A stretch of 64,000 nucleotides of DNA from Aphrocallistes beatrix (lineage: Eukaryota > Porifera > Hexactinellida > Sceptrulophora > Aphrocallistidae). The notes below the pieces were generated by a model. That model ran no database searches and was not told the DNA's origin. It saw only the letters and a program-made list of their open reading frames with translations. This document shows, in pieces, positions 8,712-63,310 of the stretch. The position numbers were made by a program, and so were the translations under genes. Position 1 is the stretch's first letter; each line of letters begins with the position of its first letter. The DNA lies in the NCBI GenBank assembly GCA_963281255.1, contig OY725492.1, positions 5,211,571-5,275,570 of the forward strand, written 5' to 3'.

Positions 8712-9947
8712 ATGGCAACCAATATTCAAGATGTCGCACCTTACGACACAATGGCGCATTTCCATCGAATCGCCGCTCGAATCGAGCTCACTTTCAAAGT
8801 CCTGATTGATCAGCTGATCGAGAGGAGGGACGCTCTCTGCCAACAAGTCACACAACTTCGAGATGACTTCCACAGCAAAGAGTGCGCCCGTATCGCAGCC
8901 ATCGAAGAGTTGGATCAAACTCTGCTGCAACTGAGACAATTGAGTAGGAGTAACATTAACCTCCCCACTCACGAACAAGCAGGGCTCGTGTACCAACAGG
9001 CCAAGCAGCAGCTGTGTGTTCCCACCCCACTCCCCAACCTCTCCTTCTCCTGTCCCACCCTCTCTCTCCTTCAGTCCCAGATAGAGCAGTTCGGGGAGGT
9101 AGTCCAGCTGGAAGCACCGCATTACTCTCAAAAAACACAACCCATCCTAACCGCTGGGATGAAAGGGAAAGGTGATAAGCAGCTTGATGGCTGTGGATTG
9201 TCTCTAGACGAAGTGAATGAGAAGGTTTATATAGCGGATTTGGGGAACAGTCGTGTACAGGTACTGTCCTTCCAAGGAGAGTTCCTATCTCACTTTGGAG
9301 AGGAAGTACTATCCTGTCCTTGGGGAATATCAGTCACTGATGATTACATCTTCGTTACAGACTTTGATTATCACACGCTATTCCAGTTCTGCAAGAACAG
9401 CCACCAACTACTCAACAGAGCTGGTGGTAGAGGGAAGAATGAAGGACAGCTGTCTTTTCCACGAGGATTAAGTGTGGACTGGAATGGAGACGTGTTTGTA
9501 GCTGACAATTTGAACGACAGAGTATCCGTGTTCTCTAACCTCCTACAATACAAGCAAACTATCGGACAAGGATCACTATCTCTACCTCGAGACGTGAAAA
9601 TAACGACAGATAAAGTGGTGGTACTAGACAAGAGTCCTAACTGCATCCACTTCTTCTCCAGAAGTGGAGACCTCCTTACCTCCTGCGTGTCTCAAGGAGA
9701 AGGACAGGAATGCTTGGTAGATAGACCTTGTTTTTTCTGTCTGGACTGTGAGCAGAATATCCTCGTTAGTGACTGCTTACACCATGTCGTCAAGATTCTC
9801 TCAAACTCCGGGGAGCTACTACACACCATTGGAAGGAAAGGGAACGGAAAAGGAGAATTCATTAATCCATATGGTATTGCCATTTCTAAATCTGGCATTT
9901 TGTTTGTATTGTCCAATAATCCTATATATTCCTTACAATTGTTTTGA
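8712..9947 (+). CDS. NHL beta-propeller protein, family member A
   Basis: Intronless, 411 residues. Residues 1-20 (MATNIQDVAPYDTMAHFHRI) are invariant across the family. About 20-90 is a predicted coiled-coil (LIDQLIERRDALCQQVTQLR .. AAIEELDQ). About 95-140 is a linker. About 145-411 holds NHL repeats, recognisable as (V/I)AD..N.RV.VF and P.G(I/L)SV motifs, probably six blades. The layout resembles the coiled-coil + NHL half of TRIM2/3/71 and lin-41 proteins, but there is no RING or B-box. NHL propellers bind protein or RNA on one face. Variable residues in this copy include C in VLSCPWG, F in QLSFPRG, L in SLSLPRD and K in VLDKSPN. Its 3' flank (about 10012-10130) is shared with copies C and D. 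The cellular role is unknown. Confidence 0.88.
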   Translation: MATNIQDVAPYDTMAHFHRIAARIELTFKVLIDQLIERRDALCQQVTQLRDDFHSKECARIAAIEELDQTLLQLRQLSRSNINLPTHEQAGLVYQQAKQQLCVPTPLPNLSFSCPTLSLLQSQIEQFGEVVQLEAPHYSQKTQPILTAGMKGKGDKQLDGCGLSLDEVNEKVYIADLGNSRVQVLSFQGEFLSHFGEEVLSCPWGISVTDDYIFVTDFDYHTLFQFCKNSHQLLNRAGGRGKNEGQLSFPRGLSVDWNGDVFVADNLNDRVSVFSNLLQYKQTIGQGSLSLPRDVKITTDKVVVLDKSPNCIHFFSRSGDLLTSCVSQGEGQECLVDRPCFFCLDCEQNILVSDCLHHVVKILSNSGELLHTIGRKGNGKGEFINPYGIAISKSGILFVLSNNPIYSLQLF

Positions 9948-11562
9948 AATTTTGTTTTGTTAGTTTTCTAATATTTTTAAGCATAATTGTTTTGTGAATT
10001 ATTTCTTTGCTAGTATTGGATACTCTGGGTAGAATTGGATTTGTTGTGACATTCAGAAACAGGTCAATCTGCTCTAAACTAATTTGAGTGTGACAATGCA
10101 ATCATGGAGAAATGTGTACTTTTGTGTAGAAAAGAAGTAAGGAAATGAATGGCATTTGATTTGATGGAGGAATGGAACCTCTCGCAATGTAGTTATTGAA
10201 ATTTGAAGTGACGTCATTGCTGGCTTGTCTTCAGACCAATCATCTACAGTCCTCATGAGGAGAAGAAGACAGTGGTGTTCACAAGAGGAGAGGTGTGAAT
10301 GAGCAGAACTTCTGATTGGTTCTGACACAGTTCTAAATATCTCCAAGATTTAATTTAATGGAGGAATGGAACCCAAAATCAGATTTCAAGGCTATTTGTG
10401 GTGCAGAATGAATGTATTCACGTGTTATCTTAGTACAGGTGACTCCGCTTAATCGAGACATTTTAGTCCCGGATACTTTCTCATGATTAAACGGCGTTCC
10501 AATTTAAACGATGAAAATTGGTATTAGCTTCTGCGTTTGGGAAACATTTCATACCGAGAGAAAGATTTTAATCTTTTTTTCTGGAGACTTGTCCCAATTA
10601 AGCGGTAGTCCCGATTAGCTGGTGTCCTAATTAAGCGGAGTTTACTATATTTAAACATATCACGATGTAATTCTTATTTCTCCATTTATTACTCACTGTG
10701 ATCTGAGCTGTTTTGGTATTGAAACTGAGTAATACACATTCCAATAAATCGATTCTATTCAAACTGAGTTAAGAGAGGAGAGAGAAGCTTTGGGAATTTA
10801 CTGTTAAATAATACTCTCTGACTGCAGTACTTGATACGGTTGAATTCCTACGGAGCTACTGGCAAGTGGAAACTACATCTCCAGCTGTTTCAGAAATGTT
10901 CCCTTACTCGGCTGCTTCTGTGCATAACAACTACATGAAATCTTCGTGGGTGGTCTACAGAGGATGGCTGCTCACGAGAGCACTGCAAACCACTACGACC
11001 AACAATATCAGATAAAAAGGACTTTTAAAAATAAATAGCGACCCTGCTCGGATCCCCAAGAAGGGATCTAATCCGTATCTTACGACCATTGAGTAGAGAC
11101 TGTAGGATTCAATCTCATTCCTGGGACTTGTGTCCATTGTGTGTATAAATTCATAATTCCTAGAGTTGTATCCACTCTGTCTCTGTCAACTCTTCATCCA
11201 GCAATCGTATGAACGAGTGGATGGGTAGAGATCTGGTTGGAGGAGACTGTTTAAAGAGAATCCACCAATCATTTATTGCTAGGTCGAACGAGTGTGTATA
11301 GAATTATGTCCAATATTTGAGTGAATAGAGGAAGATAAAGGATTACTTCCCCTTTTTCATAGATTCCTGCTGTAACATTACACTCAGTGACACGGCTCTG
11401 AGTTCTTACTTAATTGATTGATGGGACTCATTTCTGAAATTCTTTATTCGACATTTTAATCTTTCTCGATTCAGAGTAAATCCTGATTCTTCATTGCTTT
11501 GATCCTCTCTCTTATCTCCTCACTAACAATCTGTCGACTGACACTTTCTTGTAAGGTTCTGT
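9948..11562. repeat. Duplicated flanking modules between NHL-A and NHL-B
   Basis: No gene. Blocks here recur elsewhere in the window: 10012-10160 recurs after NHL-C (17857 on) and NHL-D (28818 on). The block 10196-10320 (CAGACCAATCATCTACAGTC) recurs at 29505-29625, just before the ELOVL fragment. The block 10768-10980 recurs at 29170-29485. The block 11085-11560 recurs upstream of NHL-D at 26809-27310. The spacer is therefore a mosaic of segmental copies that travelled with the NHL genes. Confidence 0.8.
10436..10648. mobile_element. pogo-like MITE (CTCCGCTTAAT family)
   Basis: The ends are CAGGTGACTCCGCTTAATCG and, inverted, AGTAAACTCCGCTTAATTAG, with TA at the left border. Inner blocks again contain AATTAAGCGG. 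A truncated relative lies at about 29040-29165, and a short one (GTTGACTCCGCTTAATCGGG) lies at about 56658. Confidence 0.65.
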
Positions 11563-12445: not shown

Positions 12446-12598
12446 GTGTGTAACCAATATTGAACTCCATGAAGTTACAGTGGTTTCCATAGCAACCATT
12501 GACGTACTATGGTATTCTCGTATTACATATAATACAGATTGTGTCTTAGTTAAAGTATAATATTTCTTTTCAACAAAATAGTTCTAAAGTCATAAGCA
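12446..12598 (+). promoter_or_regulatory. Promoter of NHL-B
   Basis: CCAAT at about 12453, X-box GTTTCCATAGCAAC at 12483-12496, TGACGTAC at 12500-12507, TATA-like TACATATAATAC just after. Spacing is the same as in the other copies. The 815-bp insertion lies about 70 bp upstream and leaves the block intact. Confidence 0.75.
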
Positions 12599-13822
12599 AT
12601 GGCAACCAATATTCAAGATGTCGCACCTTACGACACAATGGCGCATTTCCATCGAATCGAGCTCACTTTCAAAGTCCTGATTGATCAGCTGATCGAGAGG
12701 AGGGACGCTCTCTGCCAACAAGTCACACAACTTCGAGATGACTTCCACAGCAAAGAGTCCGCTCGTATCGCAGCCATCGAAGAATTGGATCAAGCTCAGC
12801 TGCAACTGAGACAATTGAGTAGGAGTAACATCAACCTCCCTACTCACGAGCAAGCAGTACTCGTGTACCAACAGGCCAAGCAGCAGCTGTGTGTTCCAAC
12901 CCCACTCCCCAACCTCTCCTTCTCCTGTCCCACCCTCTCTCTCCTTCAGTCCCAGATAGAGCAGTTCGGGGAGGTAGTCCAGCTGGAAGCACCGCATTAC
13001 TCTCAAAAAACACAACCCATCCTAACCGCTGGGATGAAAGGGGAAGGTGATAAGCAGCTTAATGGCTGTGGACTGTCTCTAGACGAAGTGAATGAGAAGG
13101 TTTATATAGCGGATTGTGAGAACAGTCGCGTACAGGTACTGTCCTTCCAAGGAGAGTTCCTATCTCACTTTGGAGAGGAAGTACTATCCTTGCCTTGTGG
13201 AATATCAGTCACTGATGATCACATCTTCGTTACAGACTTTGGTAATCACACGTTATTCCAGTTCTGTAAGAACAGCCACCAACTACTCAACAGAGCTGGT
13301 GGTGGAGGGAGTAATGAAGGACAGCTGTCTAGTCCACGAGGATTAAGTGTGGACTGGAATGGAGACGTGTTTGTTGCTGACCAATCGAACCACAGAGTAT
13401 CCGTGTTCTCTAACCTCCTACACTACAAGCACACTATCGGACTAGGATCCCTATCCGAGCCTACTGACGTAAAACTAACGACAGATAAAGTGGTGGTACT
13501 AGACTCGAGTCCCAACTGCATCCACTTCTTCTCCAGAAGTGGAGACCTCCTTGCCTCCTGCGTGTCTCAGGGAGAAGGACAGGAATGTTTGATATATCAA
13601 CCTTGTTTTTTCTGTCTGGACTGTGAGCAGAATATCCTCGTTAGTGACTACTTCCACCATGTCGTCAAGATATTCTCAAACTCGGGGGAGCTACTACACA
13701 CCATTGGAAGGGAAGGGAACAGAAAAGGAGAATTCATTAATCCATATGGTATTGCCATTTCTAATTCTGGCATTTTGTTTGTATTGTCTGATAATCCTAT
13801 TTATTCTTTGCAATTGTTATAA
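12599..13822 (+). CDS. NHL beta-propeller protein, family member B
   Basis: Intronless, 407 residues. It has the same architecture as copy A but lacks four residues (AARI, at about 21-24) at the start of the coiled-coil, a deletion shared with the dead copy at 7396. Variable propeller residues include L in VLSLPCG, S in QLSSPRG, E in SLSEPTD, S in VLDSSPN, and YF in VSDYFHH. The tract GLGSLSEPTDV and the VSDYFHH motif are also found in copy D but in no other copy, suggesting local sequence exchange. It ends in LL, not LF. The cellular function is not known. Confidence 0.88.
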   Translation: MATNIQDVAPYDTMAHFHRIELTFKVLIDQLIERRDALCQQVTQLRDDFHSKESARIAAIEELDQAQLQLRQLSRSNINLPTHEQAVLVYQQAKQQLCVPTPLPNLSFSCPTLSLLQSQIEQFGEVVQLEAPHYSQKTQPILTAGMKGEGDKQLNGCGLSLDEVNEKVYIADCENSRVQVLSFQGEFLSHFGEEVLSLPCGISVTDDHIFVTDFGNHTLFQFCKNSHQLLNRAGGGGSNEGQLSSPRGLSVDWNGDVFVADQSNHRVSVFSNLLHYKHTIGLGSLSEPTDVKLTTDKVVVLDSSPNCIHFFSRSGDLLASCVSQGEGQECLIYQPCFFCLDCEQNILVSDYFHHVVKIFSNSGELLHTIGREGNRKGEFINPYGIAISNSGILFVLSDNPIYSLQLL

Positions 13823-16390: not shown

Positions 16391-16545
16391 TCGTGTATAA
16401 ACAATATTAAATTCCACAACTTTGCACTTGTTTCCATAGCAACCATTGACGTACTATGGTATTCTCGTATTACCTATAATACAGATTGTGTCTTAGTTAA
16501 AGTATAATATTTCTATTCAACAAAATAGTTCCAAAGTCATAAGCA
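16391..16545 (+). promoter_or_regulatory. Promoter of NHL-C
   Basis: X-box GTTTCCATAGCAAC at 16430-16443, TGACGTAC at 16447-16454, TATA-like TACCTATAATAC, start codon at 16546. The CCAAT motif is degenerate here (AACAATATT instead of AACCAATATT). Confidence 0.75.
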
Positions 16546-17781
16546 ATGGCAACCAATATTCAAGATGTCGCACCTTACGACACAATGGCGCATTTCCATC
16601 GAATCGCCGCTCGAATCGAGCTCACTTTCAAAGTCTTGATTGATCAGCTGATCGAGAGGAGGGACGCTCTCTGCCAACAAGTCACACAACTTCGAGATGA
16701 CTTCCACAGCAAAGAGTCCGCTCGTATCGCAGCCATCGAAGAGTTGGATCAAGCTCAGCTGCAACTGAGACAATTGAGTAGGAGTGACATCAACCTCCCC
16801 ACTCACGAGCAAGCAGTACTCATGTACCAACAGGCCAAGCAGCAGCTGTGTGTTCCCACCCCACTCCCCAACCTCTCCTTCTCCTGTCCCACCCTCTCTC
16901 TCCTTCAGTCCCAGATAGAGCAGTTCGGGGAGGTAGTCCAGCTGGAAGCACCGCATTACTCTCAAAAGCAACAACCCATCCTAACCACTGGGATGGAAGG
17001 GGAAGGTGATAAACAGCTTGATGGCATGGGCCTGTATCTCGACGAGGTGAATGGGAGGGTGTATATAGCGGATTGTGAGAACAGTCGCGTACAGGTACTG
17101 TCCTTCCAAGGAGAATTCCTATCTCACTTTGGAAAGGAAGTTCTATCCAGTCCTTGGGGAATTTCAGTCAGTGACGATCACATCTTCGTAACAGACTGGG
17201 ATGATCACACGCTATTCCAGTTCTGTAAGAACAGCCACCAACTACTCAACAGAGCTGGTGGTGAGGGGAGTAATGAAGGACAGCTGTCTCATCCACAGGG
17301 ATTAAGTGTGGACTGGAATGGAGACGTGTTTGTAGCTGACGAATTGAACAACAGAGTATCCGTGTTCTCTAACCTCCTACACTATAAGCATACTATCGGA
17401 CAAGGATCACTATCTTCCCCTCAAGACGTGAAAATAACGACAGATAAAGTGGTGGTACTAGACTTGAGTCCCAACTGCATCCACTTCTTCTCCAGAAGTG
17501 GAGACCTCCTTACCTCCTGCGTGTCTCAGGGAGAAAGACAGGAATGTTTGTTATATAAACCTTGGTTTTTCTGTCTGGACTGTGAGCAGAATATCCTCGT
17601 TAGTGACCGCTTACACCATGTCGTCAAGATATTCTCCACCTCCGGGGAGCTACTTCACACCATTGGAAGAGAAGGAAACGGAAAAGGAGAATTCATTGAA
17701 CCATATGGTATTGCCATTTCTAATTCTGGCATTTTGTTTGTACTGTCTGGGAATCCTATTTATTCTTTGCAATTGTTTTAA
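16546..17781 (+). CDS. NHL beta-propeller protein, family member C
   Basis: Intronless, 411 residues, with the AARI residues present. Architecture as in copy A. Variable residues: M in DGMGL, S in VLSSPWG, WDD in VTDWDDH, H in QLSHPQG, EL in VADELNN, S in SLSSPQD, L in VLDLSPN, RL in VSDRLHH, E in FIEPYG. It also carries unique changes in the first blade (LYLDEVNGRVYIAD). Its 3' flank from about 17857 matches the flanks of A and D. No function can be assigned from sequence beyond a coiled-coil NHL scaffold. Confidence 0.88.
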   Translation: MATNIQDVAPYDTMAHFHRIAARIELTFKVLIDQLIERRDALCQQVTQLRDDFHSKESARIAAIEELDQAQLQLRQLSRSDINLPTHEQAVLMYQQAKQQLCVPTPLPNLSFSCPTLSLLQSQIEQFGEVVQLEAPHYSQKQQPILTTGMEGEGDKQLDGMGLYLDEVNGRVYIADCENSRVQVLSFQGEFLSHFGKEVLSSPWGISVSDDHIFVTDWDDHTLFQFCKNSHQLLNRAGGEGSNEGQLSHPQGLSVDWNGDVFVADELNNRVSVFSNLLHYKHTIGQGSLSSPQDVKITTDKVVVLDLSPNCIHFFSRSGDLLTSCVSQGERQECLLYKPWFFCLDCEQNILVSDRLHHVVKIFSTSGELLHTIGREGNGKGEFIEPYGIAISNSGILFVLSGNPIYSLQLF

Positions 17782-19140: not shown

Positions 19141-22100
19141 CTAACTTATTTGGAGGGAAGAGGTGGAACGATCCAATTTACTAACGTTAAAATCAACAAA
19201 TATCTGCAACACTGCTTCGTCAACTTGTTCCTTGCCGCACACTTGAAACTCTCTACAAAATTCTCCCAGTCTGCCCTTCATCGTTCTCTCAAAGTGAGTG
19301 TAGCTCCTGCTGGTGTTGATTCCGTGATAGAAAATATTATTTTCCGTCATCGGATTCCACACGTGTTCATCCCAATCATAGAAACAGAGAATGCCATGGT
19401 TGCAACAGCAGCAGTTTGATTGGTCACTATCACTTCGATGTTGCTTGTAGTTAGGAAAATTGCCATGAGGTGGAGCATCAAATATGTGCACGAGTATATT
19501 CTTGACGTATTTGTCAGTATACCAATTTGTCATAATCACCGCAGTTGCAAACCCATCCAACATTGCTTCTGGAGTATCACCTCCACCATCGGCCTTCACA
19601 CCTTTCAGAAATGTTCCAATTGAGTCTGAGTCGTTGGAAAAACTTGAATCATTTGGAAAAGTTTCAATGATATCCTTATCACAATGATCTCGATATATCA
19701 CGATTCGAAAATTACACTTTGAAGCTCTCTGTTGATATTCATTTGCAAGTTTAGCCACGGAAAGACGAGCTCTTTCAATATCTTTATGCATAGAACCAGT
19801 GCCATCGATTAGGAAGCAGATATAGAAGTTATTTGAAATGCTCTTCAATTCTGCAAGGCTGATAGGAATATAGGAGATGTGTATTCCCTGCGTTGAGTAG
19901 TATTGTAGTATTCCTCGACCAAATTTGCTCCAGATCTTCTGCATTACGATTCTCTGAGCTTGTCTGAGTGCTTCAAAGTTGGGATCATCTGATATTTCCC
20001 AATTCCACTCGCTTCCACAACTTGATTTAAAGTCTCTCCATTTCATAGTGGTATCGGGCAACTTAACATCCATAAAATCATGGTAGTCATCACACATGAA
20101 TAGAACAGCAGTGTGCTCTGAGTCGTTCTTCCAAACCTTTCCTCCCATCGATGAGAGTTGATGACCATTGGAAATCTGGCATTTTGAACCGTCATTGTGA
20201 ATTGGTTTCTCACAGAACTTTCCACAGCTGGGACAACGCATCTCACAACCCAACGCATCTTTCAAGAAATGACTCCTGAGTCGCTTGAACAGTTGCAACA
20301 TAAAATCAGGATTGAGAGAAAAGCTCTCACTCTTTGTTGAAAGAATGCGTCTGAAGTTTTCAATAAATGTGTAGATATTGAAGATTGATTCTTTGAAGAA
20401 GATATCAGTGCTTTCTAACCTCTTGAAATCCTCAGGTCTGATGGCATGTCCAGACTTTTCCTCTCGGAGTATATAATTGTCGGACCTTTTTATTTTAATA
20501 TTTTCGATTTCAAATGCTTTTTTGAAATGCTCTGAAAAATGTTTGGATGAAAATTTCGGGTTGAGGTACATGCTTAAGTAGAGCGACATTGCTCTAAAAG
20601 GAGCTTCCTTTGATTGGACAGATACATTTTCCATGGACTCACACAGTACAAAGTTCCTGTCAGAATATAATCGATTGGCCTCCTTTATTTCTTCAGGTAA
20701 AGCGTCAAAGTATTCTTGCAAAGACAGTAATTGTTGTGTCAAAAGATCAATGCACTCTGCAAATAACTTTTTTGCTTCGTTATGCATTATCATGTTTAAT
20801 TTTTCCTCAAGTTCGCCGAAACGTTGATGAAATAGTTTCTCCAACAAACAATTTCGATTGCATATGAACTGGATAACAAAGTTATCAGTATCAACAATTT
20901 CTATTTCAGGGTTTATTTCTACTTTTTCTTCGATGATTTGGTTTGCTTCTGATAATAAGTTTACCATTGTCAATGCTTCATTTTCACTTTCAATTCTTTT
21001 CTCGACTTTTGTCTCGATCGAAGATAAAACGAATCGTTTTACAGCTTCGATGTAACTCAGAGCGAAAGTTTCTGAAATTTTCAAATCGTTAGCTCTCATG
21101 TTGTTAGTGTCCCAATCTCCTTTTAGCATTTTGCGATTTTCGATTTTTTGGAGAAAATATCCCTTCAATTCATCTTTTTTCGAATCGCGGTGTTCTTCTT
21201 CTAATTTTATTTGTTCTTGCTGATTCCTTAGGAATACCTTGAAAGCGTAGGAGAATAGAAGAGTGGAGAGTGCCCTCTCTGCTCGATTAGATAGCATAGC
21301 TCGAATGTACTTAATCTCGTGATTCACGACGCGTCTACTGATCTTCAACTCATTTACCAGGAGTTTTATTGTAGCTTGTGAGAGCTCCGGGTCTTTCTCT
21401 AATAAAATACCAGTTTGTTCTCTCACTTCATTCAGAAACGTATCCCAAGCGCTGTTAATAAAATCCTGAGGATTTCTAAGCTTAGAAACCAGATGGAGTA
21501 TTTGGAATTTTTCTGGACATTCTCCCCACACAATCTCGTAATAGTTATAATCGCCTGAACATGATCTTACAATTGGGCTGCATTCTTCTGAAATCCACTC
21601 ACTCAACTTAGTATTTTTTCTGAACATTTTGATTTTGACCGTGTCTTGTGACTGAATGAGTGATTTGGGAGACAAATACATACATCTCGTACGTTTGTTA
21701 TGAGGTTGTATTGATTTGAGATTTCCGTAAGATTGATTGAGTGTGCAAAAGTACCAGTCTTCAGGATGGTCTATATTGACATTTTTTAAGTTGTACAAAA
21801 TTTCTCTTTCCATTTCAGATATTATTTTTTCCATATCAAAATTATGCTTTGAAAACAACTTGAAAATGGTGTGACGTGTTTCGATAAAATTGCACTCCAT
21901 TTTGAAGTTTGAGTAGAGAGTAGCAAAACATTCTTCTTGGATGTTCCGTTCGTCTTCGAAATCGTATTGATAGCATTGCTTCCAATTCTCGTTGAATTCT
22001 TGAGTTTTCTGATCGGGAGACATGTTGAGGTAGTCATCAAGCCTAAGTTCGATCCTTATTTTGAAGGTTTTCATGCTTTTGGCGAGCCTAAGCTCTAAAT

Positions 22101-25100
22101 AGTTGAATTTGATACGAAATTTTAACTTGTCTTCATACCTTTTCAAAATATTGTGTATCAAACGATTCATATTGGACTCAGCTTGCTCATAAACAAACTT
22201 AAACTGTTCAAATTCAACAAGCTCTCTTGCTTGCCTTTGAAATTCGCCTTTACATTTATCCCGACATGGATCGTAGGTTTCTTTGAATTTCCCCATTTGT
22301 TCGATAAGTATCGCTTTTGGATCGAATAGGTGTTCAATTTTGTCAATTTCTTTGAAAATTGTTTCAAGGCTATCCAAAAAGATTTGCCGCTTTTGATCAA
22401 TTTCATTTTCGATCAAATTAATGTAAATATCACTTAGAGTCTGTGAAAATTTCATTTCTTCCACCCCGCGATACATTACTATGTCCTGATATTTAACACA
22501 CGTTTCCCAGATATGTCCAGCCATCTGTATCCATTCACTGACATTTTCAAAAGGCTGTTTCTCGTTATGAGATATAAATTGTATTTCTTCAAATATCATG
22601 TCTTTTAATCCTGCGCATTTCATTAGAAAATCTTCAGTCGTTTCATGTTTTACTGGTTTGTTGTGTTTCTCTCTCCAAAAAGGAGAATCAATTGATATTG
22701 AGTTAAATGCTGAAGGTAGAATAGTCAATTGTTTATGAGAAATCTGAATCAGATCAGAAATCTTTGATTCTTCAGACGATGTCAACATGGGCAAATCCAA
22801 ACTCTCCATCATTGAATTGAGAGAACTAGCATGCTTCTTGACATCTGGATCTAGTTGCTGATTCAGAACAAAATATAATTTTGGTAGAGCCACTTTGTTC
22901 ACCTTGAGTCGAGTTAGAGAGTATGCACAAAGTTCCAGGAGGTTTTGTAGTTCAGCATTGATGTCTCCTACGATATTAATGATGACAACTTGAGAAACCG
23001 CAAGGCAGAAAAGTGCCAATGTTCTATCAAAATTTATCAAATTATCCTTTTTCGAACTCTTCCTCTCGACAGCACTCAATCCTTCAGTATCGAGAATCAA
23101 AAGAGTTTTGGAATTATTAATGTTTTCATCCAGTTGGAATAAAGACCCATAAACCCCTTTCGTACAACGACCTGAACTGGTCACAAAGCGGCAGCCGAAT
23201 AGATAGTTGAGGAGCGTAGATTTTCCTGAATTTTGAGGTCCAAGAATACTAATAACTAATGGGGCAGCACTCAATTTTAAGCTTTTCCCTCTATTATATT
23301 CATTCAATATCTCATTCTGCGCTTTATAATATTCCTGAAGAAGTATGTCTATATCTTTACTGTAGAAGACAAGATTGTCTCCATCAATTAGTTCGAAAGG
23401 TTCTCCATCCATTAGGTGCTTACAAAGATACCTTTGCAACTTAGATGTAAAGGAAATATGTTCAGGCTCCGTTCTAGTCGCATCGTACTTGAAAGAGAGC
23501 AATGCTTCTCTCCATAAGATATCGATAGAGTATTTGTAATGTGTTACTTCATTTAGAGCTTTTAGATAGTCTGAAAGGCTCCTTAAAAGCAGTGGCGAGT
23601 ATTCACAACTGAATAACTTCAAGAAGCAATCAGTCACACTACTAGTTCGAGCTTGAGATAGCTGTTTGAATGAACAAGCACATTTTTCATTCAGTTCTTT
23701 AATTGATTTTTGATTTGTCTCATGATTCGCTTTGTGATGAGAAGACATATATTCCACAAAAATTGGATAAAATGATAGAAGACATCTCTCATCTTCTTTC
23801 TTGCCATTTTTATCACTTTTATTTTCAATTAATTTAGTTACGGCATCAATTCTTCTCTTCGAATCCAGGATAGCTGGATGATTTGGGTCTTTTAACTCTC
23901 TCATTACGTTTTCAATCAAACTCTGATCAAATGTTTGGGAAGGATCTATATCTTTGAAGAGCTCTCTGAATTGGTTTATGAGCGATCTCTTAGCAGTTTT
24001 GTCTATTTGTTTCAAATTAGGAATGGAAACAGTTTGATAATGGATATAAGTTGGCATATCAGTTATTTGGTTGGTATCACGGATCAAAAGGATTATATAC
24101 TTTGAGTGTTTGGAGAAAGATTGAAGTTCATCAGCGAATCTATTTTCTTTCAGGTTTTCATAAAGGACGTGTATGAAAAGAATATTGACATATTCAGCTA
24201 GAATACGTACTATCTCAGAACTCACTCCGCTATGGCAATCAAATATGGCAACCTTAGAGTCAACCTTAATATTTTTCAAAAGCTGTACATCGATGGATTT
24301 CAAGTGGTATGGACTATTGCTGTTATCCTTGCTCACAAAGTCAGTATTGAAAATCAAATCCAGAAATGTTGACTTTCCTACTGGTGACCAATTAGCTTTT
24401 CCAAGTCCGAACGATGCAATGGTCAAACACTTGGGAAAAATAAACCACAGTTCGTGGCAAACTTTAAACATTACAGCCTCATCCCTCTCTGTAAGAGAAG
24501 CTATCGATGGATAGTAGAAAGGGACTGGGAAATTGACTGAATAGTCGTCAATGCAAAGAGCTTTGACAAGAGAATCAGATTTCTGGAAAATTGAGTGGAA
24601 TATCGCATCATTAGTTCTAGGCAAGTCCGAAGAACGATTCTGGCACCAGGCTATTTTAAGTTCATCAAAAGACAGACCACACTTTAGATAATATATCACA
24701 ATTGGAATCAATTCATCAAATTCCATTTTTTTATTTCTGCTTTCTATATCCGTCAACATCGATTTACAGGTTTCGATAGTTATAGTTTTGTACTCACAAA
24801 TAGATAGTATTCTCTTGAGATTTATGACCATTCTAGTTTCAAGTAAATCACTAACTTGCTTACTTGAATTTTCCTTTTCTTGATCTGGGGTAATACTATA
24901 TGGTAAAGACTCCGATAGACTAGTAATTTCGTTTATTTGTGATGACGATTGCTTCTTGTTAATCTAAAAGATTTGGAATTGGAACTATAAAATGAAGATT
25001 TGATCATAGATTCCGCCAACAAATCATACGGTAGCTAGACTAGTTGTTTCAGAATAGGCGGTTGTTACAAGTTACTCATTTCATATTCTAAAAGTACACC

Positions 25101-27395: not shown

Positions 27396-27549
27396 CGTGT
27401 GTAACCAATATTGAACTCCACAACGTTACAGTGGTTTCCATAGCAACCAATGACGTACTATGGTATTCTCGTATTACATATAATACAGATTGTGTCTTTA
27501 GTAAAGTATAATATTTCTATTTAACAAAATAGTTCTAAAGTCATAAGCA
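27396..27549 (+). promoter_or_regulatory. Promoter of NHL-D
   Basis: AACCAATATTG at about 27403, X-box GTTTCCATAGCAAC at 27434-27447, then AATGACGTAC with TGACGTAC at 27451-27458, TATA-like TACATATAATAC. One base between the X-box and CRE differs from the other copies (CCAATGACG instead of CCATTGACG), but the spacing is kept. Confidence 0.75.
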
Positions 27550-28785
27550 ATGGCAACCAATATTCAAGATGTCGCACCTTACGACACAATGGCGCATTTC
27601 CATCGAATCGCCGCTCGAATCGAGCTCACTTTCAATGTCCTGATTGATCAGCTGATCGAGAGGAGGGACGCTCTCTGCCAACAAGTCACACAACTTCGAG
27701 ATGACTTCCACAGCAAAGAGTGCGCCCGTATCGCAGCCATCAAAGAGTTGGATCAAACTCTGCTGCAACTGAGACAATTGAGTAGGAGTAACATTAACCT
27801 CCCCACTCACGAGCAAGCAGTACTCATGTACCAACAGGCCAAGCAGCAGCTGTTTTTTCCCACCCCACTCCCCAACCTCTCCTTCTCCTGTCCCACCCTC
27901 TCTCTCCTTCAGTCCCAGATAGAGCAATTCGGGGAGGTAGTCCAGCTGGAAGTACCGCATTACTCTCAAAAGACACAACCCATCCTAACCGCTGGGATGA
28001 AAGGGGAAGGTGATAAACAGCTTGATGGTATAGGACTGTCTCTAGACGAAGTGAATGAGAAGGTTTATATAGCGGATTATGGGAACGATCGCGTACAGGT
28101 ACTGTCCTTCCAAGGAGAATTCCTATCTCACTTTGGAAAGGAAGTTCTATCTAGTCCTTGGGGAATATCAGTCAGTGATGATCACATCTTCGTTACAGAC
28201 ATTGATTATCACACGCTATTCCAGTTCTGTAAGAACAGCCACCAACTACTCAACAGAGCTGGTGGTGGGGGGAGTAATGAAGGACAGCTGTCTGATCCAC
28301 TGGGATTAAGTGTGGACTGGAATGGAGACGTGTTTGTAGCTGACAAATCGAACAACAGAGTATCCGTGTTCTCTAACCTCCTACACTACAAGCACACTAT
28401 CGGACTAGGATCCCTATCCGAGCCTACTGACGTAAGACTAACGACAGATAAAGTGGTGGTACTAGACTGGAGTCCCAACTGCATCCACTTCTTCTCCAGA
28501 AGTGGAGACCTCCTTACCTCCTGCGTGTCTCAGGGAGAAGGACAGGAATGTTTGGTATATGAACCTTATTTTTTCTGTCTGGACTGTGAGCAGAATATCC
28601 TCGTTAGTGACTACTTCCACCATGTCGTCAAGATATTCTCAAACTCCGGGGAGCTACTACACACCATTGGAAGGAAAGGGAACAGAAAAGGAAGACTCAT
28701 TGATCCATTTGGTATTGCCATTTCTTATTCTGGTATTTTGTTTGTATTGTCCGAGAATCCTATTTATTCTTTGCAATTATTTTAA
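27550..28785 (+). CDS. NHL beta-propeller protein, family member D
   Basis: Intronless, 411 residues. The coiled-coil shares CARIAA and DQTLLQLRQ with copy A only. The propeller shares GLGSLSEPTDV and VSDYFHH with copy B only. Variable residues: I in DGIGL, YG and D in IADYGNDR, IDY in VTDIDYH, D in QLSDPLG, KS in VADKSNN, W in VLDWSPN, VYE before PYFF. A C-terminal variant reads KGRLIDPFG instead of the usual KGEFINPYG. The composition looks like a mosaic of A-type and B-type sequence. The cellular function is not known. Confidence 0.88.
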   Translation: MATNIQDVAPYDTMAHFHRIAARIELTFNVLIDQLIERRDALCQQVTQLRDDFHSKECARIAAIKELDQTLLQLRQLSRSNINLPTHEQAVLMYQQAKQQLFFPTPLPNLSFSCPTLSLLQSQIEQFGEVVQLEVPHYSQKTQPILTAGMKGEGDKQLDGIGLSLDEVNEKVYIADYGNDRVQVLSFQGEFLSHFGKEVLSSPWGISVSDDHIFVTDIDYHTLFQFCKNSHQLLNRAGGGGSNEGQLSDPLGLSVDWNGDVFVADKSNNRVSVFSNLLHYKHTIGLGSLSEPTDVRLTTDKVVVLDWSPNCIHFFSRSGDLLTSCVSQGEGQECLVYEPYFFCLDCEQNILVSDYFHHVVKIFSNSGELLHTIGRKGNRKGRLIDPFGIAISYSGILFVLSENPIYSLQLF

Positions 28786-33180: not shown

Positions 33181-33340
33181 CACCATCCTATATAGCCAAT
33201 ACTAATTCCCTAGTTTTTATAACCGTTTCCATAGCAACCATTGACGTACGATGGTATTCTCGTATTACATATAATACAGATTGTGTCTTAGTTAAAGTAT
33301 AATATTTCTATTCAACAAAATAGTTCCAAAGTCATAAGCA
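33181..33340 (+). promoter_or_regulatory. Promoter of NHL-E
   Basis: AGCCAATACTAATTCC at about 33195, X-box GTTTCCATAGCAAC at 33225-33238, TGACGTAC at 33242-33249, TATA-like TACATATAATAC. The following GATGG differs from TATGG of the other copies. Confidence 0.75.
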
Positions 33341-34576
33341 ATGGCAACCAATATTCAAGATGTCGCACCTTACGACACAATGGCGCATTTCCATCGAATC
33401 GCCGCTCGAATCGAGCTCACTTTCAATGTCCTGATTGATCAGCTGATCGAGAGGAGGGACGCTCTCTGCCAACAAGTCACACAACTTCGAGATGACTTCC
33501 ACAGCAAAGAATCCGCTCGTATCGCAGCCATCGAAGAGTTGGATCAAGCTCAGCTGCAACTGAGACAATTGAGTAGGAGTAACATTAACCTCCCCACTCA
33601 CGAGCAAGCAGTACTCGTGTACCAACAGGCCAAGCAGCAGCTGTGTGTTCCCACCCCACTCCCCAACCTCTCCTTCTCCTGTCCCACCCTCTCTCTCCTT
33701 CAGTCCCAGATAGAGCAGTTCGGGGAGGTAGTCCAGCTGGAAACACCGCATTACTCTCAAAAGACACAACCCATCCTAACCGCTGGGATGAGAGGGAAAG
33801 GTGATAAACAGCTTAATGGTATGGGACTGTCTCTAGACGAAGTGAATGAGAAGGTGTATATAGCGGATTTTGGGAACTGTCGCGTACAGGTACTGTCCTT
33901 CCAAGGAGAATTCCTGTCTCACTTTGGAGAGGAAGTACTATTCAGTCCTTGGGGAATATCAGTCAGTGATGATCACATCTTCCTTACAGACTGGGATTAT
34001 CACACGCTATTCCAGTTCTGTAAGAACAGCCACCAACTACTCAACAGAGCTGGTGGTTGGGGGAGTAATGAAGGACAGTTGTCTTGTCCACTGGGATTAA
34101 GTGTGGACTGGAATGGAGACGTGTTTGTAGCTGACCAATCGAACAACAGAGTTTCCGTGTTCTCTAACCTCCTACACTACAAGCATACTATCGGACAAGG
34201 ATCGCTAATTGCCCCTCAAGACGTGAAAATAACGACAGATAAAGTGGTGGTACTAGACAGTAGTCCTAACTGCATCCACTTCTTCTCCAGAAGTGGAGAC
34301 CTCCTTACCTCCTGCGTGTCTCAGGGAGAAGGACAGGAATGTTTTGTATATGAACCTTGTTTTTTCTGTCTGGACTGTGAGCAGAATATCCTCGTTAGTG
34401 ACTGCTTACACCATGTCGTCAAGATATTCTCAAACTCGGGGGAGCTACTTCACACCATTGGAAGGGAAGGGAACGGAAAAGGAGAATTCATTAATCCATA
34501 TGGTATTGCCATTTCTAAATCTGGCATTTTGTTTGTATTGTCCTATAATCATATTTATTCTTTGCAATTGTTTTAA
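33341..34576 (+). CDS. NHL beta-propeller protein, family member E
   Basis: Intronless, 411 residues. Variable residues: M in NGMGL, FG and C in IADFGNCR, F before SPWG, WDY in LTDWDYH, W in AGGWGS, C in QLSCPLG, IA in SLIAPQD, S in VLDSSPN, CL in VSDCLHH, Y in VLSYNHI. AATAAA at 34632-34637 lies 56 bp past the stop. This is the last plus-strand copy. Unlike A, C and D, its 3' flank is unrelated to the shared module, so the duplication unit differs. The cellular function is not known. Confidence 0.88.
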   Translation: MATNIQDVAPYDTMAHFHRIAARIELTFNVLIDQLIERRDALCQQVTQLRDDFHSKESARIAAIEELDQAQLQLRQLSRSNINLPTHEQAVLVYQQAKQQLCVPTPLPNLSFSCPTLSLLQSQIEQFGEVVQLETPHYSQKTQPILTAGMRGKGDKQLNGMGLSLDEVNEKVYIADFGNCRVQVLSFQGEFLSHFGEEVLFSPWGISVSDDHIFLTDWDYHTLFQFCKNSHQLLNRAGGWGSNEGQLSCPLGLSVDWNGDVFVADQSNNRVSVFSNLLHYKHTIGQGSLIAPQDVKITTDKVVVLDSSPNCIHFFSRSGDLLTSCVSQGEGQECFVYEPCFFCLDCEQNILVSDCLHHVVKIFSNSGELLHTIGREGNGKGEFINPYGIAISKSGILFVLSYNHIYSLQLF

Positions 34577-43428: not shown

Positions 43429-43704
43429 CTAATCGGATTTGCACAGTATCTGAATATCCATGGTTTGGTGGTGGTAGTATTTCTTGTGGAGCAGAATGCC
43501 AGCTGGGATGTTAGTGAGCTTGAAGCCTTGTCCTGATGTAACAGTGACCTTCCCCACCGCTACCCTCCAGGGTATCTCTGCGTCTTCATTATTCACTATA
43601 ACCACTTCCCATGTTCCAGGGAGAACTGACTGTGCCACTTGTTGAGGTTGTGGATATTCATCATAGTAGCCTTCATTTTGTAGCTGTTGTTGTTGTAGTT
43701 GTAG

Positions 43705-43745
<41 letters not shown>

Positions 43746-44601: not shown

Positions 44602-44830
44602 TGATTCGATCTTACTTTGTTAACTCAGCACATACACAAACACACACACACACACACACATATATACATATATATACTCAGTATAGTGTGTTTTGAGATA
44701 TTCGGTTTCACTAATATTTCTAGTTTCATTGTCAGACCATGTACAGACACTGTGCTATTCAAACTGATACTCCACTTAACTGGTGTTTCCTACAAAGCTT
44801 CTATGTCTTGAATGATTCACTAACTCCCGT

Positions 44831-45707: not shown

Positions 45708-46282
45708 GACAAGGGCTTAAATTTGGTCAAGGGGATCCTCAAGAACTCAAAACCACCAAAAAAATTTATTCTTCTCAATTTCTCGGTTGAACCCGCGTGA
45801 TCCTGGACTATTACGAATTTTCCAAATAACGACCTTAAAGTAGTATGCAGTCAGGGAGTCAGAAAAGAAATTTGAGGAGGCGTGACATAGAGTGGGCTCG
45901 AAATTGTCTATGGGTACTTTGTATTGGAAAATTACAATGTCATTGTGGGATAAGGAGAGGTGTTATACACTAACTATCAGAATGGAGGAAAGCCCTATAC
46001 TAGATTCTGTCATATAACAAGTTTGACAGTGATTGATGCTGAATTAACTGAGAAAATAAGCCCTAAAGTGATGCTCACATCTCCCTGCTAACTTCACACT
46101 CGTTTAATGACGTAAATATTTAGGGTAATTAAATAATTTAGCAACAGTTGTAGATAAAGCGCCAATCTCTAGGTTATCTACTAAAAGGTGTTTAAATATG
46201 AAGAAATAAGCAAATCTAAAAGTAAACAAACACAACACACGATCTATAAATATCTGAGGTTTCTAAGAATAGCTACACCTAT
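45708..46282. other. Spacer before TRAF-like copy 3
   Basis: No feature recognised at 45720-46100. From about 46100 (GGGTAATTAAATAATTTAGC) to 46282 it is the 3' flank shared with copy 2 (43270-43428). Confidence 0.5.
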
Positions 46283-47491
46283 CTAATCGGATTTGCACAG
46301 TATCTGAATATCCATGGTTTGGTGGTGGTAGTATTTCTTGTGGAGCAGAATGCCAGCTGGAATGTTAGTGAGCTTGAAGCCTTGTCCTGATGTAACAGTG
46401 ACCTTCCCCACCTCCACCTTCCAGGGTATCTCTGTGTCCTCATTATTCACTATAACCACTTCCCATGTTCCAGGGAGAACTGAATCTTTTGCCTCTTGTA
46501 GTAGTTGTTGTTGTTGTTGTTGTTGTTGTTGTAGTAGTAGTAGTTGTTGTTGTCGTCGTCCTTGTTGTTGTTGCGGATATCCATCGTAGTGGCCTTCATT
46601 TTGTAGCTGTACTGCTACGTCGTTAGTTACATTTAGAGAGACGGTATCGCCGGTTTCAAAGGAAAGTTGAGGATATGCAATGCCAAACGAATCTATAAAG
46701 AACTGAGGTCCAGTGAGAAGGTTACCATTCCACCCAGGAATTACAGTGTGAAGGTTATCATCCCACTCAGGAAGATCAAGGTCATGGTGTCCATAGCCAG
46801 GTTCCATTGGATTGTATGGATTGTACTGTGCCTGTGCTTGACCTTTTAATTCCTGTAGTATCCCCGTGATCGCATCTTTCTCAGCTATCTTCCAAACAAT
46901 TCCGTTTAATTTTAGATATTTCATTATTTTCATTCCTTGAGTCAAGGTGTGAACTTCTAATTGTAACTGTTCAATCATTTCCGCCTGTTGTTCCACCCTT
47001 CCAGCCAGGAACAAACTCATCAACTCTGTGTGCCACTCTTTTGACACCTCTCTGTGTCGCGCATTGTCTAGCCTCTTCATTACCACTTCACAGCCGTACT
47101 GCAAGTAGGGACATGGCACGATTAAGTGGGCACACTGGTCTAGATGCTGCGACACATCCGCCACTGTTCCCTCCCACTCACAGCCTCTCTGAGTGAGTGG
47201 ACACTTGCACTTGAGCTGTGCCACCATCTCCCTCACTGCGCCCACTGGCTGTGCCACTTCGTCACCTGCACAAGTGGCACACACCATTGCCATGCCACCA
47301 CTCACACTACAAGCGTCCCTCATGATGCCCGCACACCTCTTGCACACGATCAGCTGACTCTCCATGAGAGACAGCGTTTGCGAGATGAAATCGTGTCTGT
47401 AGCCCCCGTAGTGTGCCACTCCGCCATCTGACGACACTATGTACATTAGCTCGTTCTTATTGTCTGCTCGTAACTCATTCTTCCCAGCCAT
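46283..47491 (-). CDS. TRAF-type zinc-finger protein, copy 3
   Basis: Intronless, 402 residues, full head from the ATG at 47491. The zinc-finger and coiled-coil parts are nearly identical to copy 2. The linker differs most: it has an insertion (LDLPEWDDNLHTVIPGW), an extra IMK in the coiled-coil end, and the Gln tract is moved. VAVQLQNEGHYDGYPQ comes first, and the Gln run is interrupted by a Leu block. The C-terminal domain is conserved (PGTWEVVIVNNEDTEIPWKV .. MDIQILCKSD). Divergence concentrated in repeat-rich linkers fits tandem duplication followed by slippage. 5' and 3' flanks of about 150-250 bp are shared with the other copies. Confidence 0.82.
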   Translation of the reverse strand: MAGKNELRADNKNELMYIVSSDGGVAHYGGYRHDFISQTLSLMESQLIVCKRCAGIMRDACSVSGGMAMVCATCAGDEVAQPVGAVREMVAQLKCKCPLTQRGCEWEGTVADVSQHLDQCAHLIVPCPYLQYGCEVVMKRLDNARHREVSKEWHTELMSLFLAGRVEQQAEMIEQLQLEVHTLTQGMKIMKYLKLNGIVWKIAEKDAITGILQELKGQAQAQYNPYNPMEPGYGHHDLDLPEWDDNLHTVIPGWNGNLLTGPQFFIDSFGIAYPQLSFETGDTVSLNVTNDVAVQLQNEGHYDGYPQQQQGRRQQQLLLLQQQQQQQQQLLQEAKDSVLPGTWEVVIVNNEDTEIPWKVEVGKVTVTSGQGFKLTNIPAGILLHKKYYHHQTMDIQILCKSD

Positions 47492-53894: not shown

Positions 53895-53921
53895 GAATCG
53901 GCCGCTAAGATAACACTCGTT

Positions 53922-56811: not shown

Positions 56812-58038
56812 TTAAAACAATTGTAAAGAAAAATTAGGATTATTGGACAATACAAACAAAATGCCAGAATTAGAAATGGCAATACCAAATGGTTTAATGA
56901 ATTCTCCTTTTCCGTTCCCTTCCCTTCCAATGGTGTGTAGTAGCTCCCCGGAGTTTGAGAATATCTTGACGACATGGTGTTCACAGTCACTGACGAGGAT
57001 ATTCTGCTCACAGTCTAGACAGAAAAAACAAGGCAGAAATACTAAACATTCCAGTCCTCGTCCCTGAGACACGCATGAGGTAAGGAGGTCCCCACTTCTG
57101 GAGAAGAAGTGGATGCAGCTAGGACTCCTGTCTAGCACCGCCACTTTATCTGCTGTTAGTTTCACATCAAAAGGGTCAGATAGCAATCCTTGTCCGATAT
57201 TATGCTTGCAGTGTAGGAGGTTAGAGAGCACGGATACTCTGTGGTTCCATTGGTCAGCTACAAACACGTCTCCATTCCAGTCCACACTTAATCCTCGTGG
57301 ACCAGACAGCTGTCCTTCATTACTCCCTCCACCACCAGCTCTGTTGAGTAGTTGGTGGCTGTTCTTACAGAACTGGAATAGCGTGTCTTTAACACAGTCT
57401 GTAACGAAGATGTGATCATCACTGACTGATATTCCACAAGGCCTGGATAATACTTCTTCTCCAAAGTGAGATAGGAACTCTCCTTGGAAGGACAGTACCT
57501 GTACGCGACTGGTCCCCCAATCCGCTATATAAACCTTCTCATTCACTTCATCTAGAGACAGTCCACAGCCATCAAGCCTATTATCACCTTCCCCAGCGGT
57601 TAGGATGGGTTGTTGCTTTTGAGAGTAATGCTGTGCTTCCAGCTGGACTACCTCCCCGAACTGCTCTATCTGGGACTGAAGGAGAGAGAGGGTGGGACAG
57701 GAGAAGGAGAGGTTGGGGAGTGGGGTGGGAACACACAGCGGCTGCTTGGCCTGTTGGTACATGAGTACTGCTTGCTCGTGAGTGGGGAGGTTGATGTTAC
57801 TCCTACTCATTTGTCTCAGTTGCAGCTGAGTTTGATCCAACTCTTCGATGGCTGCGATACGAGCGGACTCTTTGCTGTAGAAGTCATCTCGAAGTTGTGT
57901 GACTTGTTGGCAGAGAGCGTCCCTCCTCTCGATCAGCTGATCAATCAGGGCATTGAAAGTGAGCTCGATTCGAGCGGCGATTCGATGGAAATGCGCCATT
58001 GTGTCGTAAGGTGCGACATCTTGAATATTGGTTGCCAT
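56812..58038 (-). CDS. NHL beta-propeller protein, family member F
   Basis: Intronless, 408 residues, on the opposite strand from A-E. It is the most divergent intact copy. It has a 3-residue deletion before the propeller (ILTAGEGDN, where others have ILTAGMKGEGDK). Variable residues: WG and T in IADWGTSR, R in VLSRPCG, CVK in VTDCVKD, G in QLSGPRG, QW in VADQWNH, D in LLSDPFD, R in VLDRSPS, VFL before PCFF, CE in VSDCEHH, K in FIKPFG. Framework changes are more frequent than in other copies (VSVLSNLLHCKHNIGQGLL). CE and KPFG/DPFG link it with copy G. The cellular function is not known. Confidence 0.88.
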   Translation of the reverse strand: MATNIQDVAPYDTMAHFHRIAARIELTFNALIDQLIERRDALCQQVTQLRDDFYSKESARIAAIEELDQTQLQLRQMSRSNINLPTHEQAVLMYQQAKQPLCVPTPLPNLSFSCPTLSLLQSQIEQFGEVVQLEAQHYSQKQQPILTAGEGDNRLDGCGLSLDEVNEKVYIADWGTSRVQVLSFQGEFLSHFGEEVLSRPCGISVSDDHIFVTDCVKDTLFQFCKNSHQLLNRAGGGGSNEGQLSGPRGLSVDWNGDVFVADQWNHRVSVLSNLLHCKHNIGQGLLSDPFDVKLTADKVAVLDRSPSCIHFFSRSGDLLTSCVSQGRGLECLVFLPCFFCLDCEQNILVSDCEHHVVKIFSNSGELLHTIGREGNGKGEFIKPFGIAISNSGILFVLSNNPNFSLQLF

Positions 58039-58165
58039 TGCTTATGACTTTACAACTATTTTGTTGAATAGAAATATTATACTTTAACTAAGACACAATC
58101 TGTATTATATGTAATACGAGAATACCATAGTACGTCAGTGGTTGCTATGGAAACAGCCTATAAAT
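58039..58165 (-). promoter_or_regulatory. Promoter of NHL-F
   Basis: On the minus strand: X-box GTTTCCATAGCAAC (58141-58154), TGACGTAC (58130-58137), TACATATAATAC and the short leader to the ATG at 58038. The base before TGACGTAC differs (CCACTGACG). No CCAAT was recognised further upstream, where homology stops at about 58160. Confidence 0.72.
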
Positions 58166-62074: not shown

Positions 62075-63310
62075 TTAAAACAATTGTAAAGAATAAAAAG
62101 GATTATCAGACAATACAAACAAAATGCCAGAATTAGAAATGGCAATACCAAATGGATCAATGAATTCTCCCTTCCCGTTCCCTTCCCTTCCAATGGTGTG
62201 TAGTAGCTCCCCGGAGTTTGAGAATATCTTGACGACATGGTGTTCACAGTCACTAACGAGGATATTCTGCTCACAATCCAGACAGAAAAAACAAGGTTGA
62301 GATACCAAACATTCCTGTCCTCTTCCCTGAGACACGCAGGAGGTAAGGAGGTCTTCACTTCTGGAGAAGAAGTGGATGCATTTAGGACTCCAGTCTAGTA
62401 CCACCACTTTATCTGTCGTTAGTTTTACGTCTTTAGGGGAAGATAGCGATCCTTGTCCGATAGTCTGTTTGTATTGTAGGAAGTTAGAGAACACGGAAAC
62501 TCTGTGGTTCAATTGGTCAGCTAAAAACACGTCTCCATTACAATCCACACTTAATCCTCGTGGAGCATACAGCTGTCCTTCATTACTCCCCCAACCACCA
62601 GCTCTGTTGAGTAGTTGGTGGCTGTTCTTACAGAACTGGAATAGCGTGTCATTATCAGAGTCTGCAACGAAGATGTGATCATCAGTGACTGATATTCCCC
62701 AAGGCTTGGATAGTACTTCCTCTCCAAAGTGAGATAGGAACTCTCCTTGGAAGGACAGTACCTGTACGCGACTGTTCCCCCAATCCGCTATATAAACCTT
62801 CTCATTCACTTCGTCTAGAGACAGTCCTGCACCATTAAGCTGTTTATCTCCTTCTCCTTTCATCCCAGCGGTTAGGATGGGTTGTGTCTTTTGAGAGTAA
62901 TGCGGTGCTTCCAGCTGGACTACCTCTCCGAACTGCTCTATCTGGGACTGAAGGAGAGAGAGGGTGGGACAGGAGAAGGAGAGGTTGGGGAGTGGGGTAG
63001 GAACACACAGCTGCTGCTTGGCCTGTTGGTACATGAGTACTGCTTGCTCGTGAGTGGGGAGGTTGATATTACTCCTACTCAATTGTCTCAGTTGCAGCTG
63101 AGCTTGATCCAACTCTTCGATGGCTGCGATACGAGCAGACTCTTTGCTGTGGAAGTCATCTCGAAGTTGTGTGACTTGTTGGCAGAGAGCGTCCCTCCTC
63201 TCGATCAGCTGATCAATCAGGACATTGAAAGTGAGCTCGATTCGAGCGGCGATTCGATGGAAATGCGCCATTGTGTCGTAAGGTGCGACATCTTGAATAT
63301 TGGTTGCCAT
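62075..63310 (-). CDS. NHL beta-propeller protein, family member G
   Basis: Intronless, 411 residues. Variable residues: A in NGAGL, WG in IADWGNSR, K in VLSKPWG, SDND in VADSDNDT, W in AGGWGS, YA in QLYAPRG, QL in VADQLNH, S and K in SLSSPKD, W in VLDWSPK, VSQ before PCFF, CE in VSDCEHH, D in FIDPFG. Framework variants are few (DCNGDVFLAD, NFLQYKQT). NFLQYKQT resembles copy A (NLLQYKQT), whereas CE and PFG resemble copy F, again a mosaic pattern. It is in the same orientation as F. The cellular function is not known. Confidence 0.88.
   Translation of the reverse strand: MATNIQDVAPYDTMAHFHRIAARIELTFNVLIDQLIERRDALCQQVTQLRDDFHSKESARIAAIEELDQAQLQLRQLSRSNINLPTHEQAVLMYQQAKQQLCVPTPLPNLSFSCPTLSLLQSQIEQFGEVVQLEAPHYSQKTQPILTAGMKGEGDKQLNGAGLSLDEVNEKVYIADWGNSRVQVLSFQGEFLSHFGEEVLSKPWGISVTDDHIFVADSDNDTLFQFCKNSHQLLNRAGGWGSNEGQLYAPRGLSVDCNGDVFLADQLNHRVSVFSNFLQYKQTIGQGSLSSPKDVKLTTDKVVVLDWSPKCIHFFSRSEDLLTSCVSQGRGQECLVSQPCFFCLDCEQNILVSDCEHHVVKIFSNSGELLHTIGREGNGKGEFIDPFGIAISNSGILFVLSDNPFYSLQLF

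Follow-up and report, generated by a model that had tools for sequence, protein, structure and literature searches.

Inherited NHL propeller genes with one diversified face in the glass sponge Aphrocallistes beatrix: a candidate repertoire of cytosolic recognition proteins

Among known systems, the WD40 propellers that underlie heterokaryon incompatibility in the fungus Podospora anserina come closest to the gene family described here, a set of NHL propeller genes of the glass sponge Aphrocallistes beatrix. For the NWD/HNWD genes of this fungus (het-d, het-e), the accessible part of the published account places diversifying selection on the top face of the propeller, at WD40 codons 7 and 9, in the d-a loop, and codons 25 and 27, in the b-c turn, and describes concerted evolution with exchange between genes (PMC1805685). 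We analyzed the sponge family starting from seven copies in a 64,000-nucleotide stretch of contig OY725492.1 (positions 5,211,571 to 5,275,570, forward strand), called the window below. Like the fungal genes, as far as that account covers them, the family combines diversifying selection in the d-a and b-c loops of a propeller with signs of exchange between genes, and its selected positions lie 16 to 19 residues apart, compared with 18 in Podospora. Unlike the fungal proteins, which are described there as carrying WD40 repeats, nearly alike and changing in number, on NACHT proteins, the sponge proteins have six NHL blades and a helical N-terminus and are encoded by many single-gene paralogues. 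NACHT was absent from the Pfam matches of the copies scanned, which comprised only NHL and propeller families. The sponge family works like the Podospora repertoire and is not a member of it. The sequence establishes its pattern of variation firmly. We read it, with a probability of roughly 0.65, as a repertoire of cytosolic proteins that is encoded in the germline, serves recognition, is homogenized by gene conversion and has one diversified binding face.

Resemblances to other systems are more partial. The finTRIM and TRIM5-type B30.2 proteins are also expanded, TRIM-derived and selected in C-terminal recognition loops, but they have the B30.2/SPRY fold with RING and B-box and belong to vertebrates. 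Lamprey variable lymphocyte receptors (VLRs) and plant leucine-rich repeat (LRR) receptors likewise present a diversified face on a repeat scaffold. These are LRR solenoids, however, and VLRs are assembled somatically, whereas the sponge genes are inherited open reading frames (ORFs). The six-bladed NHL propeller itself is shared with TRIM-NHL proteins (LIN41/TRIM71, Thin, TRIM2/3, Brat). In the part of the source available, the corresponding NHL face of LIN41 and Brat binds RNA, and the LIN41 contacts can be grouped into pairs 15 to 18 residues apart (our own grouping, in which spacing alone was compared) (PMC5908797). Unlike TRIM-NHL proteins, the sponge family has no RING or B-box in the two copies scanned, comprises about 200 matches, and has a hypervariable face that is not basic. 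Coral tachylectin-2 is presented, in the accessible part of a report whose title names one gene, as a putative invertebrate immunity gene with positive selection (PMC2880987).

The seven NHL ORFs that a sequence-only reading of the window had proposed are all present; each is intronless and has about 411 codons. Copy A is an intronless ORF of 411 amino acids (aa) with stop at 8712..9947 on the plus strand, and its propeller starts at codon 141 (position 9132). Copies B (12599..13822, 407 aa), C (16546..17781, 411 aa), D (27550..28785, 411 aa) and E (33341..34576, 411 aa) lie on the same strand; F (56812..58038, 408 aa) and G (62075..63310, 411 aa, the copy whose structure was modelled) lie on the minus strand. 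The N-terminal 140 residues are nearly invariant, as claimed: 124 of the 140 columns do not vary, 15 show two residues and a single one shows three. Columns with four to seven different residues are absent from the N-terminus and number 15 of 271 in the propeller (161, 177, 202, 218, 220, 240, 249, 266, 291, 293, 307, 337, 338, 385 and 402 in copy A numbering). Twelve of these 15 fall at the blade motifs named in the sequence-only reading, and columns 161, 240 and 402 fall outside them. Its figure of four to seven residues per site applies to most sites; the VSD site (355, 356) has only three.

In all 21 pairs of window copies, 14 to 20 of the 21 variable codons, which were picked for their variability, differ, and synonymous-only differences number 0 or 1. 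Nei-Gojobori (NG86) estimates of synonymous (dS) and nonsynonymous (dN) divergence among the seven copies were 0.049 and 0.019 for the N-terminus, 0.134 and 0.045 for the propeller outside the variable sites, and 0.401 and 0.716 at the 21 variable sites (ratio 1.8, with dS confounded at saturated codons). Since the N-terminal synonymous sites are young too (dS 0.049 versus 0.134), homogenization contributes to the sameness of the N-terminus, and not constraint alone. This near-invariance is local to the window cluster.

Selection was analyzed in a core set of 37 full-length ORFs, the seven window copies included, each at least 70% identical to copy A. They were drawn from 70 of 103 loci; truncated or interrupted ORFs and those below 70% identity to copy A were excluded. 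Among the 37 members, most of the propeller columns with the highest entropy are next to the loop proline or follow the b-strand Asp. In place of HyPhy, we used our own Python version of the fast unconstrained Bayesian approximation (FUBAR), with a 16 x 16 grid and kappa set to 2. On the whole-gene tree (37 genes, 411 codons), 30 sites were under diversifying selection at P>0.9, 17 of them in d-a loops and 11 in b-c loops. These are 28 of the 96 top-face loop sites in the modelled topology, in contrast to 0 of 48 on the opposite face (a-b and c-d loops; Fisher P 3e-6 between faces). The remaining two are site 251, at the start (top end) of strand a beside the proline, and site 93, the only one among the 140 N-terminal positions. 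Thus, the variable sites are not scattered; burial was judged from the modelled topology only, with the copy G model applied to copy A numbering (same length).

The signal persisted when recombination was allowed for. When each of eight segments was given its own tree, the number of selected sites was again 30, of which 25 were common with the whole-gene run; 26 lie on the same face as before, the N-terminus has three and an a-b loop has one. Simulations on recombinant trees with the nonsynonymous rate beta set to 0.9 times the synonymous rate alpha gave 2, 3, 6 and 4 sites in four runs. At the 25 doubly supported sites, beta was 4.86 against an alpha of 0.70 on the whole tree (about sevenfold) and 3.67 against 0.98 on the segment trees (3.7-fold), so that dN/dS stays above 1. 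The proposal that variation recurs at equivalent places of each blade also stood: 25 of the 29 selected propeller sites lie at most two residues from x-P or one to four residues after the Asp, a register of 54 of the 271 sites that was defined after the data had been seen (hypergeometric P 2e-16).

The NHL profile (PF01436) matched above cut-off in the two copies scanned (E 5.6e-17 and 1.2e-21). The model of copy G (mean pLDDT [predicted local distance difference test] 91.2) has helices at 13-78, 84-101 and 117-126 and a six-bladed propeller at 146-411, closed by its N-terminal strand. The propeller is predicted to be a six-bladed NHL propeller of the TRIM71/Thin/TRIM2 type. With regard to the coiled coil of TRIM proteins, the single-chain model shows the long helix 13-78. 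No signal peptide was apparent by eye, and the proteins of the family are probably cytosolic. They probably act through partners, because no RING or B-box was found in the two copies scanned.

The family is large. Copy A had at least 103 matches in the genome on many contigs, fragments included and only the best candidates scored, and an NHL profile search found at least 150 places, which were all that were scored among 3391 candidates. A second subfamily, about 25% identical to the first and located mainly on contigs C12, C3, C1 and C9, comprises 103 matches, 64 of them near full length without stops (hand count). Over both subfamilies there are about 200 NHL matches, fragments included. A scan of viral contigs found no relative, and a viral origin was rejected. 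On C12 (4250346-4265110), five NHL genes stand in tandem at a spacing of exactly 3,380 bp; four are equal in score and the two compared are identical. This array is a very recent amplification or an assembly repeat. Many copies on C1 and C15 (for example, C15:4095382-4121151) contain a single TAG in frame and align only from about codon 79 onward, which may reflect an intron or a shared disabled start.

The second subfamily showed selection in mostly the same places. Among 20 genes fetched (19 distinct), 16 sites were selected; 12 of them lie on the face, and 12 match positions of the first family (overlap P 3e-12). A smaller test with 11 distinct genes from C12, which had low power, gave 3 sites. 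We also compared 73 proteins, each at most 55% identical to any own ORF fetched. They remained from 78 proteins after two had been removed for length and three for a 91-100% match to own ORFs, and were taken to come from one or more other genomes because one of them (P0053), searched against the own genome, gave at most 54% identity. Here 22 of the 30 most variable positions lie on the face and 19 match sites of the selected set; in a version with 76 proteins, 21 were on the face and the same 19 were shared. Mean entropy was highest in the b-c loops (1.60), followed by the d-a (1.39), c-d (1.34) and a-b loops (1.08).

Recombination was examined with our own implementations of a test like the pairwise homoplasy index (PHI) and of a tract test. 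Three gene sets gave a recombination signal in the PHI-like test: the complete set (0 of 500 shuffles), the second C6 cluster (1 of 500) and the window cluster together with locus L007 (0 of 500). In codons 1-70, synonymous differences were 0.02-0.07 within clusters and 0.18-0.32 between them. In codons 199-334 (blades 2-4), they were 0.014-0.103 within and 0.055-0.111 between, so that copies of different clusters are about as close here as copies inside two of the three clusters; the C2 copies are the most alike among themselves. These values are consistent with exchange of blades between clusters. The block common to copies E, F and G extends from about -116 to -150 (up to -202 for F and G) to just past the stop, and copies A to D have more flank in common. 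The flanks are unalignable while synonymous divergence is only about 5-13%, which suggests that promoter and ORF were homogenized by ectopic conversion or dispersed as one unit.

One face of the propeller, with about 24-30 positions (the flanks of the proline and one to four residues after the b-strand Asp), is under diversifying selection, and the rest is constrained. In the mechanism that we propose, this face may serve as a paratope that binds many different ligands, probably proteins, from microbes, viruses or foreign cytoplasm. The N-terminal helix would form dimers or oligomers and thereby add avidity. Ectopic gene conversion may keep promoter and scaffold alike and reshuffle the blades, and selection would retain new combinations on the face. 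A more specific and tentative version, of low probability in our view, draws on the fungal analogy: a syncytial animal would have built the fungal solution independently, with conversion-reshuffled cytosolic propellers policing one shared cytoplasm against foreign cells and microbes. If true, the family would do in an animal what heterokaryon incompatibility does in fungi, and it would form a new class of anticipatory repertoire encoded in the germline.

By the same analogy, the repertoire might serve cytoplasmic self/non-self (allo-)recognition and guard the shared syncytial cytoplasm against fusion with other individuals. In Podospora, the NWD WD40 repeats are also selected in these two loops, which lie 18 residues apart there (PMC1805685), and the tissues of glass sponges are syncytial, as described in the available parts of two genome papers (PMC10280926, PMC10282587). 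However, selection was measured here among paralogues, not alleles. In a protein database clustered at 90%, 41 proteins matched an own ORF at 90% identity or more (best 120 matches). Because 28 of the 41 are identical to an own ORF (four of the 28 are the window's own), no great allelic spread is visible. The near-identical proteins are apparently from another assembly of the same species. Among the first 10 of 70 papers listed for allorecognition and fusion in glass sponges, none dealt with grafts in this group. We consider allorecognition an unlikely function of the family.

Slightly less likely still is an RNA-binding repertoire, in which the paralogues would recognize different host, viral or transposon RNA motifs. 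The sequence-only reading had pointed to Brat and LIN-41 as NHL propellers in which this face binds a ligand, namely RNA. The inherited, diversified face is well supported and the precedent agrees in location, but it does not agree in chemistry. The LIN41 contacts are mostly Arg and Lys in the part of the source available (PMC5908797). No basic RNA-contact face was found in the sponge family, in which the variable sites are charge-balanced (Lys/Arg 14.7%, Asp/Glu 16.0%), with net charges of -7 to +6 per gene and a mean of -0.3. The 24 doubly supported propeller sites are enriched in Trp (9.6-fold), Tyr (7.3-fold) and Arg (2.9-fold) and depleted in Val, Gln, Leu and Ile relative to the rest of the propeller, buried strands included. 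All 37 genes have distinct combinations of residues on the face, and any pair differs at 12 or more of the 24 positions. This composition suggests a surface closer to a protein-binding paratope than to a nucleic acid-binding one.

Relaxed constraint, by which unimportant surface loops would drift without recognizing anything, is most improbable: propeller loops are variable in general and the c-d loops of the other-genome set also have a high mean entropy (1.34), but the 37 genes have no selected site among the 48 opposite-face loop sites, beta exceeds alpha about sevenfold (3.7-fold on the segment trees), and Trp and Tyr are strongly enriched. Targeted or regional hypermutation of the variable codons instead of selection is equally remote. 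All 37 codons at site 249 end in T and are very diverse at positions 1 and 2, NG86 dS is 0.40 at the variable sites versus 0.13 in the rest of the propeller (confounded by saturation), and alpha in the second subfamily peaks in the b-c loops (1.95), as hypermutation would have it; against this, the 25 doubly supported sites have no higher alpha on the whole tree than the other sites (mean 0.70 versus 0.75), and codons for the same residue differ less there than elsewhere (10.6% versus 12.9%). As the model-based synonymous rates are not clearly raised, selection is favored over hypermutation.

Several points weigh against a diversified repertoire of recognition proteins. The gene models are open frames alone. 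In the two copies scanned, as ORFs alone, a RING finger had no match at E up to 10, and neither a B-box nor a known effector domain was found. The baseline for Trp and Tyr enrichment includes buried strands. The pairwise dS at variable sites exceeds that of the rest of the propeller, and alpha on the segment trees is slightly raised at doubly supported sites (mean 0.98 versus 0.90, median 1.03 versus 0.72). The second subfamily also has a variable N-terminus, with 18 of its 30 most variable columns there, so that a fixed scaffold is not general. In the other-genome set, the entropy of c-d loops nearly equals that of d-a loops. The C2 cluster gave no recombination signal in the PHI-like test (394 of 500 shuffles), and long tracts exchanged between clusters were rejected, with 0 of 361 pairs beyond the null. 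Finally, 14 pairs were compared, five of which, at about 88-91% identity, were kept out of the near-identical count. In the remaining nine, 18 of 105 differing positions fell at selected sites (P 0.0006, hand sums), but without one chimaera-like pair, in which all 25 differences lie within codons 121-219, the excess was lost (10 of 80, P 0.066).

It has long been asked how early animals, lacking antibodies, distinguish foreign from own, and few studies have addressed this in glass sponges. The members of the family differ mainly on one face, much as immune recognition molecules do. This suggests that an early animal lineage inherits a set of recognition proteins not described before, large and built on a scaffold without a report for such a role in the literature searched. 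No report of a hypervariable NHL repertoire was found in that literature, which consisted of titles and abstract beginnings and had most subscription journals outside it, and the term NHL does not occur in the main text of the two glass sponge genome papers (PMC10280926, PMC10282587). Selection locates the presumed contact residues and thus names residues for testing. That the same two loops are selected as in a fungal incompatibility system suggests that propellers are a favored solution for intracellular recognition, and the syncytial host makes the shared-cytoplasm hypothesis testable by fusing individuals.

Each window copy is preceded by a conserved upstream block of about 116 bp before the ATG: 8596..8711 (A), 12483..12598 (B), 16430..16545 (C), 27434..27549 (D) and 33225..33340 (E) on the plus strand, and 58039..58154 (F) and 63311..63426 (G) on the minus strand. 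All seven blocks open with GTTTCCATAGCAAC followed by a TTGACGTA-like sequence (three mismatches in copy A, 0-1 in the others), at 8596-8619, 12483-12506, 16430-16453, 27434-27457, 33225-33248, 58131-58154 and 63403-63426. We take this motif to resemble an RFX X-box followed by a cAMP response element (CRE), as in promoters of major histocompatibility complex class II genes. The X-box part is present upstream of 6 of 9 C2-cluster copies and is apparently degenerate in the copies of the second C6 cluster examined. An exact copy of the motif without an NHL ORF behind it lies at 4595..4618 on the plus strand. It is followed by a splice-donor-like CGTAAGT and, downstream at about 5020-5280, by a frame that looks THAP-like by eye; promoter capture is possible. 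A truncated NHL gene fragment at 7396..7503 (plus strand) corresponds to codons 1-40 and is 78% identical.

Elsewhere in the same genome (G000), NACHT domains had at least 94 scored matches, many of which lie in frames that run for about 1,100-1,200 aa without interruption. In the only such frame read (L104), the NACHT domain is accompanied by a DED match just under cut-off. For the glass sponge A. vastus, the available part of a report gives no bona fide NOD-like receptor (PMC12909245). AIG1 (GIMAP-like) domains had 91 matches in G000, some under cut-off; a tandem, mostly single-exon AIG1 expansion is described for A. vastus in the accessible part of its genome paper (PMC10282587). Within the window, an elongase gene near the NHL copies (34946-35827) is 71% identical to a protein of Oopsacas minuta (Hexactinellida) and 69-72% identical to three further proteins, and the remaining matches are at most 48% identical (best 120 of 1203). 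This one gene makes a hexactinellid host likely. Silicatein was a weaker marker of the taxon: of 32 peptidase C1 matches in the genome, 13 fragments were read, 12 of which carry the catalytic Cys, while one could not be recognized. Three tandem paralogues at 40992-47491 have poly-Gln tracts of differing length, and the two of three scanned resemble Sina-type zinc fingers just under cut-off. A giant GTPase frame of the URGCP type at 19141-24831 runs for 1,896 aa without interruption and includes a VWA domain.

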